A stretch of 64,000 nucleotides of DNA from Oscillatoria nigro-viridis PCC 7112 (lineage in GTDB: Bacteria > Cyanobacteriota > Cyanobacteriia > Cyanobacteriales > Microcoleaceae), in assembly GCF_000317475.1 (NCBI RefSeq), contig NC_019729.1, positions 4,168,501 to 4,232,500 of the forward strand, written 5' to 3'. Under the pieces are notes generated by a model, which had not been told where the DNA came from, searched no databases, and saw only the letters and a list, made by a program, of their open reading frames with translations. The position numbers were made by a program, and so were the translations under genes. Shown piece by piece: positions 51,520 to 64,000 of this stretch; the stretch's first letter is position 1; every line of letters starts with the position of its first letter.

Positions 51520-54500
51520 TCATAAGTTCTTACGCTGAAACCGATCGACCGCAGCCTGCAATTTTTCCCCCAGTATCCGAACGTGAGGTTCTTTTAACAT
51601 CCCAAGGTGGTTGCTGGGAATCTCGTGAACCTCTATTCCTCCCGTAATTACCCCGCCCCAACCCAATTCGCGATCGGCACCAGACGCCTCCGCACTCTCA
51701 ACTGCCTTGAAAATAGAAGCCCGACCCGGATAAACTCCCCCTACATAATTTTTCAATGCCTGATGATTTAATTCCCGATGAGTGAAGTTTTCCAAATAAA
51801 TTGGCAGGGGACGCCCCACCGCGCGGTACAAATTGCACAAAATTCTCCACTGAATCTCAGTGAGATCCTCGATTTTTCCGATCAGATTGCTCTTCGCTTT
51901 ATTCATAAATGCACCGGGGGTGAGACGTAAAATTCTCATGATCCCTTCACTTTGCTTCATCTCAGACGAATTTTTGAAAGCAGCCGGCCCGTAGGTGTCC
52001 AACAATCCCAGCAAAGCTACCTTCTCACCTAGATCGTGAAGTTGCCTGGCCATCTCAAAAGCTACTGTCCCGCCAAAAGATACTCCTAACAGAAAATAAG
52101 GGCCGTGCGGCTGAAAATTTTGCATTTCTTTTATGTAATAAGCTGCCAATTCCTCAACTCGATTGGGGGGAGCCAATTTTTCATCCATAATCTGGGTTGA
52201 CAGTCCCAAAACAGGCTGCGATCGATCGATATAATTCATTAAAGGACGGTAAAATTCCAATCCTCTACCGAGTACGTGGATGCAAAACAGAGGCGGTTTG
52301 TAACTTCCGGTTCCCGGTTGAATCACCACCATTGACGGAGACGGTGACGACCATTCCGGTTCGCGGAGAATGTCAGCCAATTGTTCAACCGTTGGCGATT
52401 GGAAAATAGCAGACAGCGGCAGCTTTTTGTCGAATACTTTCTCAATTTCAGCTAACAAGCGCGCTGCTAGCAGGGAATGTCCTCCCACCTCGAAGAAATT
52501 GTCCCTAATTCCCATTGAATTAATGCCTAAAACTTGTTGCCAAATTTCTGTCAGTTGGATATCTAATTGGTCGCGCGCGGCAACAGCAATTGTTTCATTG
52601 GGCGCAGCGTCGCTAGATTGCCACTTTTGAGTTGCCAAAGCGCGGCGGTCTACTTTGCCGTTGGGGTTTAAGGGCAGTTCTTTCACCAACACAAAAGCAC
52701 TCGGTATCATATAGTCGGGTAGCCTTTGTTTTAGGTAGTCGCGCAGATTGCCAGTCAAAGTGCGCTGCAAAGTTTTCCACAAGCCTTGAGTTTCCAACTG
52801 ATAGGCTACGCTTTGGTTAACTGTATTCTGTTCGTTCGGTGTAAGCTGAAACTGAATCCCGGTTTGTGGTGGACGCGACCAGGCGACTATCCCTGAAAGC
52901 CAGCGCGGTTCGTTCTCTCCAGGCAGTTGCAGGTGCAGGCGAACGCTCCTACCTCGATCGAGAACTGGCACGCCCACCAGAGCAACGCCACTCGTGGAGA
53001 TATCCTCTGTGTCGAGTTTGATGGGTTTACCGTCTAGTTCTAGTTGGCATTCACTGTGATAAGGGATGCGCTCTGGAATGAGTTTGGAGACGAGATAAGC
53101 CACGAGACGCTTGTTGCCAGGTGTGTCTTCTCGGTCAATGACTGCTGTAGAGAGTACGTCTGGGTGTTGTGTTAGTAAAGTTTCAATTTCGCCGAGTTCG
53201 ATGCGGAAGCCGCGAATCTTTACCTGATTGTCGGCGCGTCCGAGGTATTCGATGTTACCGTCACTCAGGTAGCGCGCTAAATCCCCTGTTTTGTAAAGGC
53301 GATTTGATTTGGTACGATCGGATGCTTCTTGGTTTTGGGCAATCTCTAGTTTTTCACCAGCATTCCCCAATCTAAAATCTAAAATCGGCAATCTAAAATC
53401 GTTGAAGGGATTGGGAATGAACCTTTCGGCTGTCAAATCGGGGCGGTTGAGGTAGCCTCTGGCCAAGCCGGCGCCGCCTGCATACAATTCCCCCGCAACG
53501 CCGATCGGCACTGGCTGCAAATGCCGATCGAGTATGTAAACTTGAGTATTGGCGATCGGCCGCCCGATGGGCACAGAATTAGTAATTTGACTGTCAGGGG
53601 CGATCGGCGCGCAGCAAGTAAAAGTGGTATTTTCGGTCGGCCCGTAACCGTTAATTAATTTGCAATTTGGAACTTCTCGCAGCAACTTCTGGACGTGAGG
53701 AACAGATAAAACGTCGCCGCCTGCCAACAGTTGGCGCACGCCCTTTAAATCGTCAATGCGATCGTCCACCATCAAGTGAAACAGTCCGGCTGTCAGCCAC
53801 AAAATTGTCACATTGTATAAGCGAATCGCCTCTCCCAACTCTGCCAAAGACGGGCTGCCGGGAGGGAATACCACCAGTTGCGCTCCGTTGAGCAGCGCTC
53901 CCCAAATTTCCAAGGTCGAGGCGTCGAAGGAAATCGGAGCAAGTTGCAGGAAGACTTCTGCTGCGGTGAGGCTGGCAAAATTAGTGTCTTTGACTAACCG
54001 CACTACGCCCCGGTGGACGACGCAAACGCCTTTGGGCTTGCCTGTCGAACCGGAAGTATACATGACATAAGCTAGATTGTCTGCATTAGCGAGATTGGCT
54101 GGGTTTATCTCACTTTGTGCGTCTATTTCCTCCCGCGCCGCATCCAGGCAAATGACTTTTGCTCCGCTGTCGGGAAGTCTTTCTACGAGGTTCTGTTGAG
54201 TCAAAAGCAGCGATATTTGGGCGTCTGACACCATGAAATCCAGCCGGTCTTTGGGATAAGCTGGGTCTAAGGGCAAGTAAGCCGAGCCTGCTTTAAGAAC
54301 AGCCAAAAGCGAGACGATCGCATCGATCGATCGATCCAAACAAATGCCCGCTAAAACTTCCGGGCCGGCCCCCAAAGTTTGCAGGTAATGTGCGAGTTGA
54401 TTGGCGCGACAATTTAGCTGTTGGTAGGTTAGCTGTTGCTCTCCAAAAACTAAGGCTACAGCATCGGGAGTTTGTTGTGCTTGAACTTCAAATAGTTGGT

Positions 54501-55962
54501 GAATGCAGGCTGATTCGGGATAATTTGTGTGAGTGTTGTTCCACTCGACTAATAGCTGTTGTTGTTCCGCTGCTGTCAAAATTGGCAAGTTTTTCAGCGG
54601 ACACTGAGGATTAGCAACTATCCCCTCTAACAGCACCTCAAATTCAGCCATGCGGCGGCGGATTGTCGCAGCATCAAATAAGTTGGTATTGTACTGGCAC
54701 TCCAGCACGAGTTTGTTTTTTGTTTCGCTGGCATTCACTGCCCATTCAAAGTTTTCGCAAGTTCTCGGATTCGAGAAAACTTCAGCCTTAAAACCGTCAA
54801 AATTAAGTTGCTCTTCTGCAAGCTGCACGTCCAGATTAAAAGTTACAGGCACTAGCGGAATGCGACTGAAATCCCGCGGCACTGCTAGTTTTTTTACGAG
54901 AGTACCGAAGGTAATCTGCTGGCAGTCGAGAGCATCTAAAATTGCCGTGCGGCGCGATCGCAAATAATCTCTAAAAGATTGTTCCTCCTTAATGCGGGTG
55001 CGGATCGGCAACAAGCTCACGCAGTGTCCCGCAAGCTTGTCTTTTCCCCCAACAAGTTGTCCTGCCGCCGGCATTCCGACAACCAAATCTTCTTGCCCGC
55101 ACAAGCGGTACATAAAAGCTTCAAATGCAGCAAACAGAGTTGTAAAAAAACTGCATCCTGCTTTTTTTCCCAGACGTTTGAGGTTAACAACCAAATCACG
55201 ATTGAGTTCCCAATCTTCCCGCGAACCCTGGTAAGTTCTCAAAGCAGGTCGCGCTCTGTCTGTCGGTAAATCTAGCACCGGAATTGTGCCTGAAAACTGT
55301 TCTAACCAATACTTTTGGACCTCAAGAATTTCGGCTGTTGTTGAGTTTTCTTCTTGTAAAATAGCGTATTCTATAAAACTTTCGGGCTGTGGAAGATTGG
55401 CAGCTAACCCTTGCTGTCTGGCAGAATAAATTGCTCCCAAATCCGGGAGTAGTATGCCCCAAGACCAGCCATCGCAAATGATGTGGTGGCCTGTGAGAAT
55501 AACGATGTGTTCCTGTGCTTGCAGCTTAATAATTTGACTGCGAAACAGCGGCCCGCGCACTAGATTGAAAGGTCGATCGACTTCTTGACGGCGCAAATGT
55601 GCTAATTTCGATTCGCGATCGCGATCGTCCACAATTGACAAGTCGAGCACCGGAATGTCAAGTTCGATTGACGACGCAATACAAAGAGTCGATCCGTCAG
55701 GGCTAAATGTTGTCCGCAGCGCCTCGTGCCGCTGCACCAATTCCTGAATGGAAAATCGGAGAGATTCAACGTCGAGGTTTCCTTGCAACCGCAGACACAT
55801 CGACTCGTTGTAAGCGCAATTTGCTTCGTCTCCCATTTGCACGGCAATCCAGATTTCTTTCTGCGATTCTGTCGCGGGTACGCAAGCAAAAAGTTCTCCG
55901 CCGACGAAAGGATCGAAGTCTACAGCAGTTAGTTTTGGTTGTAAATCTGCGGTTGTTTTCAT
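51520..55962 (-). CDS. NRPS module C-A-PCP-TE with a PilZ-like domain in the A domain
   Basis: 1480 residues: condensation at ~20-450 (HHIICDG at 159-165); adenylation at ~485-1110 (YTSGSTGKPKG at 635, GYGPTENTT at 772, KTGDLARYL at 891, NGKVDRRAL at 1101); carrier protein with Ser1163 (GGHSLL); and thioesterase at ~1215-1470 (GVSFGGT). By hand alignment to GrsA the A-domain code reads DALWLGGTF(K); I assign no substrate. Between LVAYLV (953) and LRDYLKQRLPDYM (1073) sits a ~110-residue PilZ-like insert. A repeat-derived stretch (NDFRLPILDFRLGN) lies near 854-867. This is the final module: it adds one residue and releases the product. Confidence 0.93.
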   Translation of the reverse strand: MKTTADLQPKLTAVDFDPFVGGELFACVPATESQKEIWIAVQMGDEANCAYNESMCLRLQGNLDVESLRFSIQELVQRHEALRTTFSPDGSTLCIASSIELDIPVLDLSIVDDRDRESKLAHLRRQEVDRPFNLVRGPLFRSQIIKLQAQEHIVILTGHHIICDGWSWGILLPDLGAIYSARQQGLAANLPQPESFIEYAILQEENSTTAEILEVQKYWLEQFSGTIPVLDLPTDRARPALRTYQGSREDWELNRDLVVNLKRLGKKAGCSFFTTLFAAFEAFMYRLCGQEDLVVGMPAAGQLVGGKDKLAGHCVSLLPIRTRIKEEQSFRDYLRSRRTAILDALDCQQITFGTLVKKLAVPRDFSRIPLVPVTFNLDVQLAEEQLNFDGFKAEVFSNPRTCENFEWAVNASETKNKLVLECQYNTNLFDAATIRRRMAEFEVLLEGIVANPQCPLKNLPILTAAEQQQLLVEWNNTHTNYPESACIHQLFEVQAQQTPDAVALVFGEQQLTYQQLNCRANQLAHYLQTLGAGPEVLAGICLDRSIDAIVSLLAVLKAGSAYLPLDPAYPKDRLDFMVSDAQISLLLTQQNLVERLPDSGAKVICLDAAREEIDAQSEINPANLANADNLAYVMYTSGSTGKPKGVCVVHRGVVRLVKDTNFASLTAAEVFLQLAPISFDASTLEIWGALLNGAQLVVFPPGSPSLAELGEAIRLYNVTILWLTAGLFHLMVDDRIDDLKGVRQLLAGGDVLSVPHVQKLLREVPNCKLINGYGPTENTTFTCCAPIAPDSQITNSVPIGRPIANTQVYILDRHLQPVPIGVAGELYAGGAGLARGYLNRPDLTAERFIPNPFNDFRLPILDFRLGNAGEKLEIAQNQEASDRTKSNRLYKTGDLARYLSDGNIEYLGRADNQVKIRGFRIELGEIETLLTQHPDVLSTAVIDREDTPGNKRLVAYLVSKLIPERIPYHSECQLELDGKPIKLDTEDISTSGVALVGVPVLDRGRSVRLHLQLPGENEPRWLSGIVAWSRPPQTGIQFQLTPNEQNTVNQSVAYQLETQGLWKTLQRTLTGNLRDYLKQRLPDYMIPSAFVLVKELPLNPNGKVDRRALATQKWQSSDAAPNETIAVAARDQLDIQLTEIWQQVLGINSMGIRDNFFEVGGHSLLAARLLAEIEKVFDKKLPLSAIFQSPTVEQLADILREPEWSSPSPSMVVIQPGTGSYKPPLFCIHVLGRGLEFYRPLMNYIDRSQPVLGLSTQIMDEKLAPPNRVEELAAYYIKEMQNFQPHGPYFLLGVSFGGTVAFEMARQLHDLGEKVALLGLLDTYGPAAFKNSSEMKQSEGIMRILRLTPGAFMNKAKSNLIGKIEDLTEIQWRILCNLYRAVGRPLPIYLENFTHRELNHQALKNYVGGVYPGRASIFKAVESAEASGADRELGWGGVITGGIEVHEIPSNHLGMLKEPHVRILGEKLQAAVDRFQRKNL
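53361..53401 (-). repeat. AAATCTAAAATC repeat inside the NRPS gene
   Basis: CAATCTAAAATC units, read on the minus strand in frame as FRLPILDFRL. The matching place in the adenylation domain of the gene at 61340 has an unrelated linker, so this loop tolerates insertions. Confidence 0.8.
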
Positions 55963-61339: not shown

Positions 61340-64000
61340 TTAGGGTTTTTTGGTAGATTGCTTTTGCCGTTTAAAAGCAGCTTTTTGCCGATCGGCCCTG
61401 TCTTGAAATTTGTTGTTGGATTGGCTCGCGCTTTTTCCCTCGTTTAAATAATTTGCCAATTGGGCGATCGTCGGGTGCTGGAACAATTTCACCACCGGCA
61501 AGTCTTTACCTAACAGAGTCCGAACTTGGACTGCAACTTGCAGCGTCATCAAAGAATTGCCTCCTATCTCGAAGAAATTGTCGTGAATGCCGACGCGATC
61601 GAGTTTCAACAACTTAGACCAAACACCCGCCAGCAAAAGCTCCAACTCGCTTTGCGGTGCCGCGTAACTCTGGGACTGTTCTTGTCGCTGCGAGTCAGGT
61701 GCCGGCAGGGCGCGGCGGTCGATTTTCCCGCTGGGCGTCTTCGGCATCGCCTCAACATTCACAAACACCGCAGGCACCATGTAATCTGGGAGTTGCTCTT
61801 GCAGGTAACGGCGGAGGTCGGCTATTGCCAATTGCTCTTCTGGATTGGCAACTATATAAGCAACCAGTCGTTTGTCCCCCGGTACGTCTTCCCGCGCCAG
61901 CACCACAGCTTGTTTGACGGCGCGATGTTTTGCCAGTGCGGTTTCGATTTCTCCCAACTCTATGCGGAAGCCGCGAATTTTGACTTGACCGTCAATCCGC
62001 CCGATGTACTCGATGTTACCGTCACTCAGGTAGCGGGCTAAATCTCCAGTTTTATAAAGGCGATCTTCTGAAGGCAGAAGGGTAATATCTGATTCCTGTT
62101 CGATCGCGCGTATTTCATTGTGTTTAAAAGGATTAGGAATAAATTTTTCAGCAGTCAAGTCCGGGCGGTTGAGATAGCCCCGGGCCAAACAGATACCCCC
62201 GATGTAGAGTTCTCCGGGGACGCCGATCGGTACAGACTCATAGTTCCTGTGTAACAAATATATCTGCGTGTTGGCAAGAGGGCGGCCGATCGGAGGCAGT
62301 GCGGGCCAATCTCCGGGCGGGCCTGCCAGGGTATAAGCTGTAACAACGTGGCTCTCGGAGGGGCCGTATTGATTGTGCAGGGTACAGTTTTCTAGCTGTT
62401 GAAAGAAACTGGCTATGTAACGGTTGACTTGCAACTGTTCGCCGGCGGTGATTACTTCGCGCAGCGATTTCGGTATTAGCTGATAAGTATCGGCTGCTTC
62501 GGCTAAGTGTTGCAGGGCGATAAAAGGGAGAAATAGTCTTTGAATCTTTTGTTTGTCGATTAGCTGCAACAAACTTTGGGCATCTCGCCGGATTTCTTCT
62601 GTGATGAAAACGAGGGTGCCGCCGGCGCACCAAGTACAGAACATTTCTTGAAATGAGACATCGAAGCTGAGAGATGCAAATTGCAGGGTTTTGGCTGGGC
62701 CCTCAAGGGTCGAGTTTTGGAGTTGCCACGCAATTAGGTTGACTAGGGCGCGGTGCGGGAGGGGAACTCCTTTGGGTTTGCCTGTGGAACCTGATGTATA
62801 TATTGTATAGGTTAAATTGTCGGGAGAGACGCTGCTGGGTGGGTTTTCGGTGCTGTGACTGCTGATTGTTTCCCAGTCTGCGTCCAAACAAACGGCGCGG
62901 GCTTGATGCGCTGGCAGCCCCGACACTAAGTGAGATTGAGTGAGTATAACGGGAGTTTGGGTGTCGGCTAACATGAAGGTCAGCCTTTCTTGGGGATAGG
63001 CGGGATCTAGGGGAACGTAAGCTGCGCCTGCTTTGAGAACGCCTAAAACGGCGATCGCAATTTCTAAGGAACGTTCCATGCAAATAGCTACTAAAACATC
63101 GGGCCCGACGCCTAATTGCTGCAAGTAACGGGCTAGTTGATTGGCTTTGGAATTGAGTTCGAGGTAGGTGAGTTGCTGTTGGAGATTTTGGGAAAAAACG
63201 GCGGCAATGGCATCGGGCGATCGATCGACTTGTGCTTCAAATAATTGGTGAACGCATTTGTCTTGCGGATAATTTGCTTGAGTTTGATTCCACTCCTGCA
63301 ACTGAGCGAGTTCGGCTGCTGTCAGCATTGACAATTTGCTGATTTTCTGCTGGGGATTGGCGGCTATACTTTCTAGCAAAGTTTGCAGGTGTCCCAACAT
63401 TCGGGTAATGGCGATCGGATCTAACCGCTGGCGATCGCCCGCAATTTTCAACAGCAGTTCGGTTCCCCCGTATGCGTAAACTGTTAGCGGAAAACTTGTC
63501 TGTTCTAAAAGCTGAAATTCTCGGTTTTGCCAGTTGCCGCCGAGAGCTTGCAAGGCAGAATTAATGTGATATTTTTCAACTACTAGCAGGCTTTCAAATA
63601 AAGCTGTGCCGCGGGATATCTCGCTCCATTCTTGAGTTTTTGCCAGCGGCACGTTCCCGTATTCTTGAAATGCCGTCCACTGAGTTTGCAGTTGTTTGAG
63701 CCAGTCGATCGCTGGTAAATCGGGAGATACAATTACCCGACACGGCAAAGTATTTATAAATAATCCTACGGCTGATTCTGCGTTTTCTATATTCTGCGAT
63801 CGGCTGTTGCAAATTGCTCCAAATACTACATCTTCCGAACCGGAACAGCGGCTCAAAAGTAGGGCCCACGCTCCTTGCAGCAGGGTATTTAGGGTGATAT
63901 TGTGTTCTTTAATTAGGGAGTTTAAGGCTGCGGTTACGGTGCTAGAAAGCCGGATTTCTGGTGGTGTCAGGAACAGGCAAGATGCCATTGGTGTAAACTT
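61340..64000 (-). CDS. NRPS module C(partial)-A-PCP, cut by the window edge
   Basis: The frame is open to base 64000, so the gene starts outside; at least 886 residues are visible. They are the C-terminal half of a condensation domain, an adenylation domain (YTSGSTGKPKG; QYGPSESHVV; KTGDLARYL; SGKIDRRAL), a carrier protein (FEIGGNSLM), and a basic C-terminal tail (ADRQKAAFKRQKQSTKK) that may dock to the PKS. A hand-aligned code reads DVQFIAQVV(K), close to published proline codes of the DVQxIAHVVK type except His to Gln; proline-like specificity is a tentative guess. The visible 5' end overlaps a family A repeat core at 63968-63986. The PKS gene starts 3 bases downstream. Confidence 0.92.
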   Translation of the reverse strand, partial: KFTPMASCLFLTPPEIRLSSTVTAALNSLIKEHNITLNTLLQGAWALLLSRCSGSEDVVFGAICNSRSQNIENAESAVGLFINTLPCRVIVSPDLPAIDWLKQLQTQWTAFQEYGNVPLAKTQEWSEISRGTALFESLLVVEKYHINSALQALGGNWQNREFQLLEQTSFPLTVYAYGGTELLLKIAGDRQRLDPIAITRMLGHLQTLLESIAANPQQKISKLSMLTAAELAQLQEWNQTQANYPQDKCVHQLFEAQVDRSPDAIAAVFSQNLQQQLTYLELNSKANQLARYLQQLGVGPDVLVAICMERSLEIAIAVLGVLKAGAAYVPLDPAYPQERLTFMLADTQTPVILTQSHLVSGLPAHQARAVCLDADWETISSHSTENPPSSVSPDNLTYTIYTSGSTGKPKGVPLPHRALVNLIAWQLQNSTLEGPAKTLQFASLSFDVSFQEMFCTWCAGGTLVFITEEIRRDAQSLLQLIDKQKIQRLFLPFIALQHLAEAADTYQLIPKSLREVITAGEQLQVNRYIASFFQQLENCTLHNQYGPSESHVVTAYTLAGPPGDWPALPPIGRPLANTQIYLLHRNYESVPIGVPGELYIGGICLARGYLNRPDLTAEKFIPNPFKHNEIRAIEQESDITLLPSEDRLYKTGDLARYLSDGNIEYIGRIDGQVKIRGFRIELGEIETALAKHRAVKQAVVLAREDVPGDKRLVAYIVANPEEQLAIADLRRYLQEQLPDYMVPAVFVNVEAMPKTPSGKIDRRALPAPDSQRQEQSQSYAAPQSELELLLAGVWSKLLKLDRVGIHDNFFEIGGNSLMTLQVAVQVRTLLGKDLPVVKLFQHPTIAQLANYLNEGKSASQSNNKFQDRADRQKAAFKRQKQSTKKP
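63968..63986. repeat. Family A repeat core at the window edge, inside an NRPS gene
   Basis: CAGGAACAGGCAAGATGCC, the same core as at 18392-18410. It is read on the minus strand in frame as ASCLFLT within the condensation domain. Confidence 0.55.

Follow-up and report, generated by a model that had tools for sequence, protein, structure and literature searches.

Why would a peptide-making enzyme carry a PilZ domain in the moving part of its catalytic machinery? The question is raised by a nonribosomal peptide synthetase (NRPS) gene of Oscillatoria nigro-viridis PCC 7112, lying on the reverse strand of the 64,000-nucleotide stretch analysed here (positions 4,168,501 to 4,232,500 of contig NC_019729.1; hereafter the window), whose adenylation (A) domain is interrupted between motifs A8 and A9 (Table 1). 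Judged from its sequence, the interrupting segment is a PilZ domain situated in the loop of the C-terminal lid (A-sub) between the strand on the A8 side and the helix toward A9, and its predicted fold agrees with this. The interpretation we favour, and hold to be moderately probable, is that this insert is a lid-borne, non-catalytic module for regulation or docking.

In this A domain A8 and A10 are 186 residues apart; within the same hit set the figure is 82-86 for uninterrupted A domains and about 500 for those with a methyltransferase, so the insert measures about 100-104 residues; the extra stretch noticed in the initial annotation is therefore real, and slightly shorter than the ~110 residues given there. 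Its limits were set from an alignment with plain A domains and from the structure model, and of the earlier ones (52800..53085) the upper end stands whilst the lower end truncates the C-terminal helix. A8 on one side and A9 on the other flank the insert just as first read (LVAYLV occupies residues 953-958), A10 follows A9, and the A-sub profile is split by the insert, profile positions 41-76 matching after the insert. The peptides first quoted are all found in the open reading frame (ORF) 51520-55962(-), namely PERIPYHS at residues 963-970, DISTSGVALVG at 987-997, VRLHLQ..AW at 1007-1028 and TGIQF at 1034-1038.

The PilZ identity proposed from these peptides is borne out by the Pfam scan, where PF07238 scores 39.3 bits (E 9e-10; curated cutoff 22.5) on the whole protein and 44.7 bits (E 1.8e-11) on the segment alone, and matches 18 of the 18 inserts of our alignment A1 at E up to 0.1. 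PilZ, for which we know of no catalytic activity, is the sole Pfam match inside the insert, with no tailoring-enzyme domain there. AlphaFold2 models and a fold search predict the six-stranded PilZ beta barrel with its C-terminal helix, and neither another fold nor a lack of profile hit was encountered; the Pfam scores, the models and the fold matches together rule out chance resemblance and mis-annotation. The best sequence-profile matches among PDB structures are XC1028 and XAC1133 (E about 0.005), and a PDB search with a single insert sequence gave no match. Both belong with PilZ proteins, such as those of type IV pili, that show low or no binding of cyclic diguanosine monophosphate (c-di-GMP), and proteins of the XC1028/XAC1133 type are described, in the portions of the source available, as acting through partners.

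Interruption of A domains at this site is known. Excerpts of three papers, two reviews and a study of recombination (PMC11355689, PMC8949500, PMC8097286), report methyltransferases, oxidases, ketoreductases or reductases and monooxygenases inserted between A8 and A9, and PilZ is absent from the texts of all three. Like the interrupted A domains of TioS, KtzH, McyA, McnC and 5wmm (the last at rank 20 among the fold matches of the window's model), the present one is interrupted at a8-a9, keeps A motifs on both sides and carries its insert on A-sub; unlike them, it holds PilZ, theirs being enzymes as far as the excerpts go. From its sequence it is an interrupted A domain whose insert is of a signalling type instead of an enzyme, a form present in many cyanobacterial and Beggiatoa-type NRPS proteins. 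Among the papers listed and checked in the open-access literature of PubMed Central (PMC), none describes PilZ within an NRPS, which does not establish absence from print. Apparent co-occurrences there were 'Pilz' as an author name or in German text; PMC7288161, in the sections available, does not join the two subjects, and the accessible part of a Microcystis PilZ survey (PMC7063779) names cellulose synthase and stand-alone forms.

In databases the combination is already held, since the precomputed Pfam column shows PF07238 together with AMP-binding in 118 of the best 120 of 7982 homologues (exceptions P0045 and P0098; P, L and G numbers are our handles for proteins, loci and genomes). These 120 come from sources including Microcoleus, Kamptonema, Argonema, Phormidium, Oscillatoria, Laspinema, Limnoraphis, Nostoc, Leptolyngbya, Rippkaea orientalis and Candidatus Parabeggiatoa, to which a second listing, the best 120 of 1936 proteins, adds Geitlerinema and a Thiotrichaceae genome. 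In named genomes a scan found eight loci, five from cyanobacteria, two from Candidatus Parabeggiatoa and one from Candidatus Marithrix; the Parabeggiatoa genome holds four copies, that of Marithrix two. Of 386 genomes sampled evenly across the phylum, with at most 11 candidates scored in each, 12 match at E 1e-6, ten of them in long frames with a best E of 2.1e-29 or lower; L012 and L013, weak hits located in other PilZ proteins, were rejected as family members. Two of the seven genomes sampled from the genus match, that of the window among them. The insert is thus sporadic yet recurrent, and common to cyanobacteria and gammaproteobacteria, both of which include mat-forming gliding filaments. 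No stand-alone PilZ relatives were found, the six hits of a profile search of short proteins all being, on reading, pieces of A domains or A-sub, and plasmid records gave no match. Some layouts are irregular: P0122 (215 aa) and L032:1345-1911 (Parabeggiatoa) are short A-sub plus PilZ stretches with no A core and a degraded A10, either fragments or free lids, P0018 runs from an A core and an A-sub with PilZ through a truncated carrier to a coreless second A-sub with PilZ and a carrier domain, and in G129 (L005, L014) a single frame contains two PilZ inserts separated by about 700 bases. The layouts of P0018 and G129 look like products of recombination deletion.

Does the insert then receive c-di-GMP, as the initial annotation suggested, and thereby lock or free the lid? 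For this ligand the motifs used by canonical PilZ domains are RxxxR and [D/N]xSxxG, according to the part of PMC11800159 available. With canonical receptors (YcgR, MotI/DgrA, Alg44, the BcsA C-terminus, MrkH) the insert shares the predicted fold, DxSxxG and the second Arg of RxxxR, and R965, D987, S989 and G992 fall within the 16 columns that are best conserved in the aligned stretch, which speaks for such a gate. It differs from these receptors in having both domain ends tied into another domain and in lacking, in single inserts, the first Arg. The RxxxR, rightly called weak from the outset, reads LIPER here, with Leu in place of the first Arg, so that the receptor claim keeps one half of its motif evidence and loses the other. 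We read 115 single inserts from 105 of the 120 listed proteins (seven others have double inserts, and the remainder were missed by the motif patterns), and in all 115 the first position is neither Arg nor Lys, being L in 97, V in 10, H in 4, F in 2 and S in 2; nor does any row with a residue in that column carry Arg or Lys among 210 distinct domains, eight of which are gapped there. The second Arg is kept in 114 of the 115, the Asp or Asn of [DN]xSxxG in every one, the full motif in 108, and a Cys seven residues past the Arg again in every one. The column assignment is supported by the PilZ of L042 (ERIAPR), found in a 694-aa frame of a carrier genome that, by its length only, we take to be cellulose-synthase-like: its first Arg falls, in a weak match, on Leu961 of the window.

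A different picture is given by relatives with two consecutive PilZ domains within one A domain (P0068, P0085, P0088, P0106, P0109-P0111, P0128-P0133, P0139 and L011, the last from a genome, G053, listed with 9% contamination), of which P0128-P0131 have, according to the Pfam column, carrier and reductase domains but lack a condensation domain. Of 15 distinct tandem proteins, 13 had their copies read; P0088 and P0110, which complete the set, are without the first Arg by sequence. RxxxR is present in the second copies of P0128, P0129, P0130, P0139 and P0232, together with [DN]xSxxG in all of these except P0129, which lacks the full second motif; thus four of the 13 have both. P0131 has His at the first-Arg place, and the other second copies read are without the Arg. 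In the four second copies with both motifs the Pfam match starts at profile position 2, in the window's insert and the first copy of P0128 at position 6, and this too agrees with a c-di-GMP gate. Fusion to the A-sub strand may have overwritten the first Arg in the copy adjacent to the joint, leaving the second copy free to keep it.

The genomic context points the same way. The only PilZ match in the genome of the window, at E up to 1, is the insert itself, and c-di-GMP should be available in carriers because GGDEF domains are present, with 25 matches in this genome and at least three in each of the 11 other carrier genomes, which proves nothing about binding. In G278, G334, G382 and G387 each PilZ match lies within a frame of at least 1303 residues. 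Of 13 A-sub matches in the genome of the window 11 are full length, one is split (that of the window) and one is a half match below cutoff, so the insert seems confined to one module; some of the full-length matches sit in frames of 496 and 660 residues, which need not be NRPSs. A half A-sub match (1214699-1214824) lies downstream of a condensation domain with two internal stops (G000:C1:1210015-1211397), and this region is probably a decaying NRPS gene. Against the gate stands the uniform loss of the first Arg in single inserts, together with the finding, in the part of the report available, that Leptospira YcgR with both Args replaced lost binding (PMC11800159). From these sequences, direct binding of c-di-GMP by the window's copy seems on balance improbable, and a lid locked or freed by such binding rather unlikely.

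Alternatively, the PilZ could be a passive passenger of a permissive loop, kept for folding or spacing with no regulation. Domains are known to land in the A8-A9 loop (same three papers, as excerpted), and mean identity is 0.52 for the insert, compared with 0.72 and 0.75 for the A-sub flanks and 0.55 for the core. Purifying selection on the insert is nevertheless indicated, since its ratio of nonsynonymous to synonymous change (dN/dS) is 0.26-0.53 in the listed pairs that give one (the 25 of 325 with lowest insert synonymous difference, including two whose identical inserts yield no ratio); higher values, 0.57-0.78 at synonymous distances of 0.95-1.22, come from five pairs that involve the distant L034. 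Synonymous difference is mostly lower in the insert than in the A-sub flanks (22 of 276 pairs, chosen by low insert value), about half in the close pairs L025/L026, L010/L020 and L001/L023. This is partly an effect of pair choice, to which separate exchange of the insert may contribute, and since the pairs were picked by low insert synonymous difference the insert and flank ratios are not comparable.

Passive carriage also finds support in the occurrence of close A cores with PilZ, with methyltransferase or with no insert: the core of P0001_425 carries PilZ, and its close relatives P0003_445, P0005_464, P0006_425 and P0007_464 carry methyltransferase at the same A8-A9 site. In an A-core tree of 146 rows, built with the insert excluded (from 206 domains minus 11 of unclear kind, duplicates and near-copies), rows cluster by specificity type, with PilZ, plain and methyltransferase forms intermixed. 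PilZ versus not requires 24 changes on this tree, and the single-PilZ group 28, of which 23 are forced by well-supported branches alone; even so, the label is more clustered than when shuffled (28 against a mean of 37.5 changes, 0 of 500 as low). The proportions of PilZ and plain forms are uninformative because the sample was drawn from homologues of the PilZ form. A link of the insert to the substrate is ruled out, as the two kinds of A domain, PilZ-bearing and plain, are interspersed on the core tree and share specificity types.

Among the 115 single inserts, distances between PilZ domains correlate better with distances between A-sub flanks (r 0.81) than with core distances (r 0.54). L010 and P0017_913, neighbouring genes of apparently one genome, do not differ in the PilZ domain and are only 51% identical in the core. 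At the DNA level L010 and L016, both loci of that genome, differ little or not at all in A-sub and insert, with cores differing at 64% of synonymous sites. Natural NRPS recombination mainly swaps the A core and spares A-sub with its T interface, as stated in the portion of Baunach et al. 2021 (PMC8097286) available, which fits this pattern, though gene conversion of the lid would leave the same trace. The domain thus follows the scaffold or lid more than the substrate pocket, and belongs to an NRPS-specific PilZ family. What disfavours a passive passenger is, in our judgement, that the conserved polar positions R965, C972, D987, S989, Q1066 and R1067 exceed the needs of a spacer, and that the domain was doubled, its second copy having full motifs in some relatives; we therefore regard it as unlikely. 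Sensing of another signal, be it another nucleotide or redox through Cys972, is very improbable. In its favour, half of the canonical pocket is kept with the first Arg lost, and the Cys972 column is Cys in 202 of the 209 family rows with a residue there; against it, in the model this Cys lies in the first barrel strand and may be buried. The likelihoods given to the favoured module, the c-di-GMP gate and the passive insert partly overlap.

In the lid-borne module that we favour, the PilZ would bind a partner protein or, weakly, a nucleotide, and once bound would help or hinder the rotation of the lid between adenylation and thioester formation, setting the loading speed of this one module. Control of an enzyme through an attached PilZ is known from BcsA. 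Excerpts of two papers put the rotation at ~140 degrees between half-reactions (PMC8097286, PMC10590383), and in one of them (PMC10590383) enzymes with a fluorescent protein engineered into a hinge could, in the cases tested, still adenylate but were impaired in thioester formation. A body near the lid can therefore affect the second step, and so binding of a ligand or partner by a lid PilZ could change loading. Some observations weigh against this interpretation. The insert is, as seen above, more variable than its flanks; in L018 the DxSxxG region is replaced by other residues with the A-domain frame still open, so the ligand face seems dispensable in some cases; and GGDEF domains are widespread in cyanobacteria, which makes their presence weak evidence. 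Regulation by the insert and its mode we infer, the gating of the lid from position alone.

The gene itself is the last of an assembly line in which a C-A-PCP gene is followed by a KS-AT-ACP-aminotransferase gene and then by the PilZ-bearing terminal module. Adenylation by the latter is predicted, its A motifs being intact on reading. By eye its specificity code is D-A-L-W-L-G-G-T-F-K, which we take to be Val-like; scripted codes place position 278 by a fixed offset, are unreliable there, and printed A for this core. The aminotransferase is of class III, in what is a three-gene NRPS-polyketide synthase line. Outside the window but in the same genome, the line is adjoined by a 583-aa protein (L045:4855-6606) whose six clostridial hydrophobic W (ChW) repeats are unexpected for a cyanobacterium, and a replicative helicase DnaB with intein splicing and LAGLIDADG domains is found at L045:13345-17235.

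Table 1. Features of the PilZ-bearing NRPS gene and its neighbours (positions in the window; residues in the 1480-aa protein)
Feature	Position	Strand	Basis
NRPS gene, 1480 aa: C - A core - A-sub with PilZ insert - PCP - TE	51520..55962	-	ORF and Pfam
Condensation domain, residues 28-471	54550..55881	-	PF00668, 316 bits
Adenylation core, residues 491-914	53221..54492	-	PF00501, 306 bits over residues 491-838
A8 hinge motif KIRGFRIELGEIE, residues 915-927	53182..53220	-	peptide located in ORF
PilZ insert in A-sub lid, residues ~960-1072	52747..53085	-	PF07238 residues 964-1048; AlphaFold2 models; fold matches
RxxxR position, L961-I-P-E-R965, second Arg kept, first missing	53068..53082	-	sequence
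Cys972	53047..53049	-	family alignment
DxSxxG motif D987-I-S-T-S-G992	52987..53004	-	sequence
A9 motif LPDYMIPSAF, residues 1081-1090	52693..52722	-	peptide located in ORF
A10 motif NGKVDR, residues 1101-1106	52645..52662	-	sequence
PCP domain, residues 1136-1198	52369..52557	-	PF00550
Thioesterase domain, residues 1224-1461	51580..52293	-	PF00975
Upstream assembly-line gene, KS-AT-ACP-aminotransferase, 1700 aa	56234..61336	-	Pfam
First assembly-line gene, C-A-PCP with plain A domain, 1180 aa, start beyond window	61340..64000	-	Pfam

As to what the insert means, we suggest, quite tentatively, that c-di-GMP or another nucleotide, bound by the PilZ of the lid, acts as a gate on the move from adenylation into thioester formation and tunes peptide output to the motile or sessile state. 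Tandems with a canonical second PilZ would then be strong sensors, and single inserts weak or partner-dependent ones; if this is true, mat-forming cyanobacteria and Beggiatoa-type bacteria adjust their peptide output by lifestyle. The family makes testable whether a body attached to A-sub alters lid rotation, with the tandem relatives holding complete c-di-GMP motifs as natural positive candidates and the single inserts as comparison. A signalling-type insert would mean post-translational control of single NRPS modules through the very lid that drives their cycle, and would give engineers a switch that already exists.
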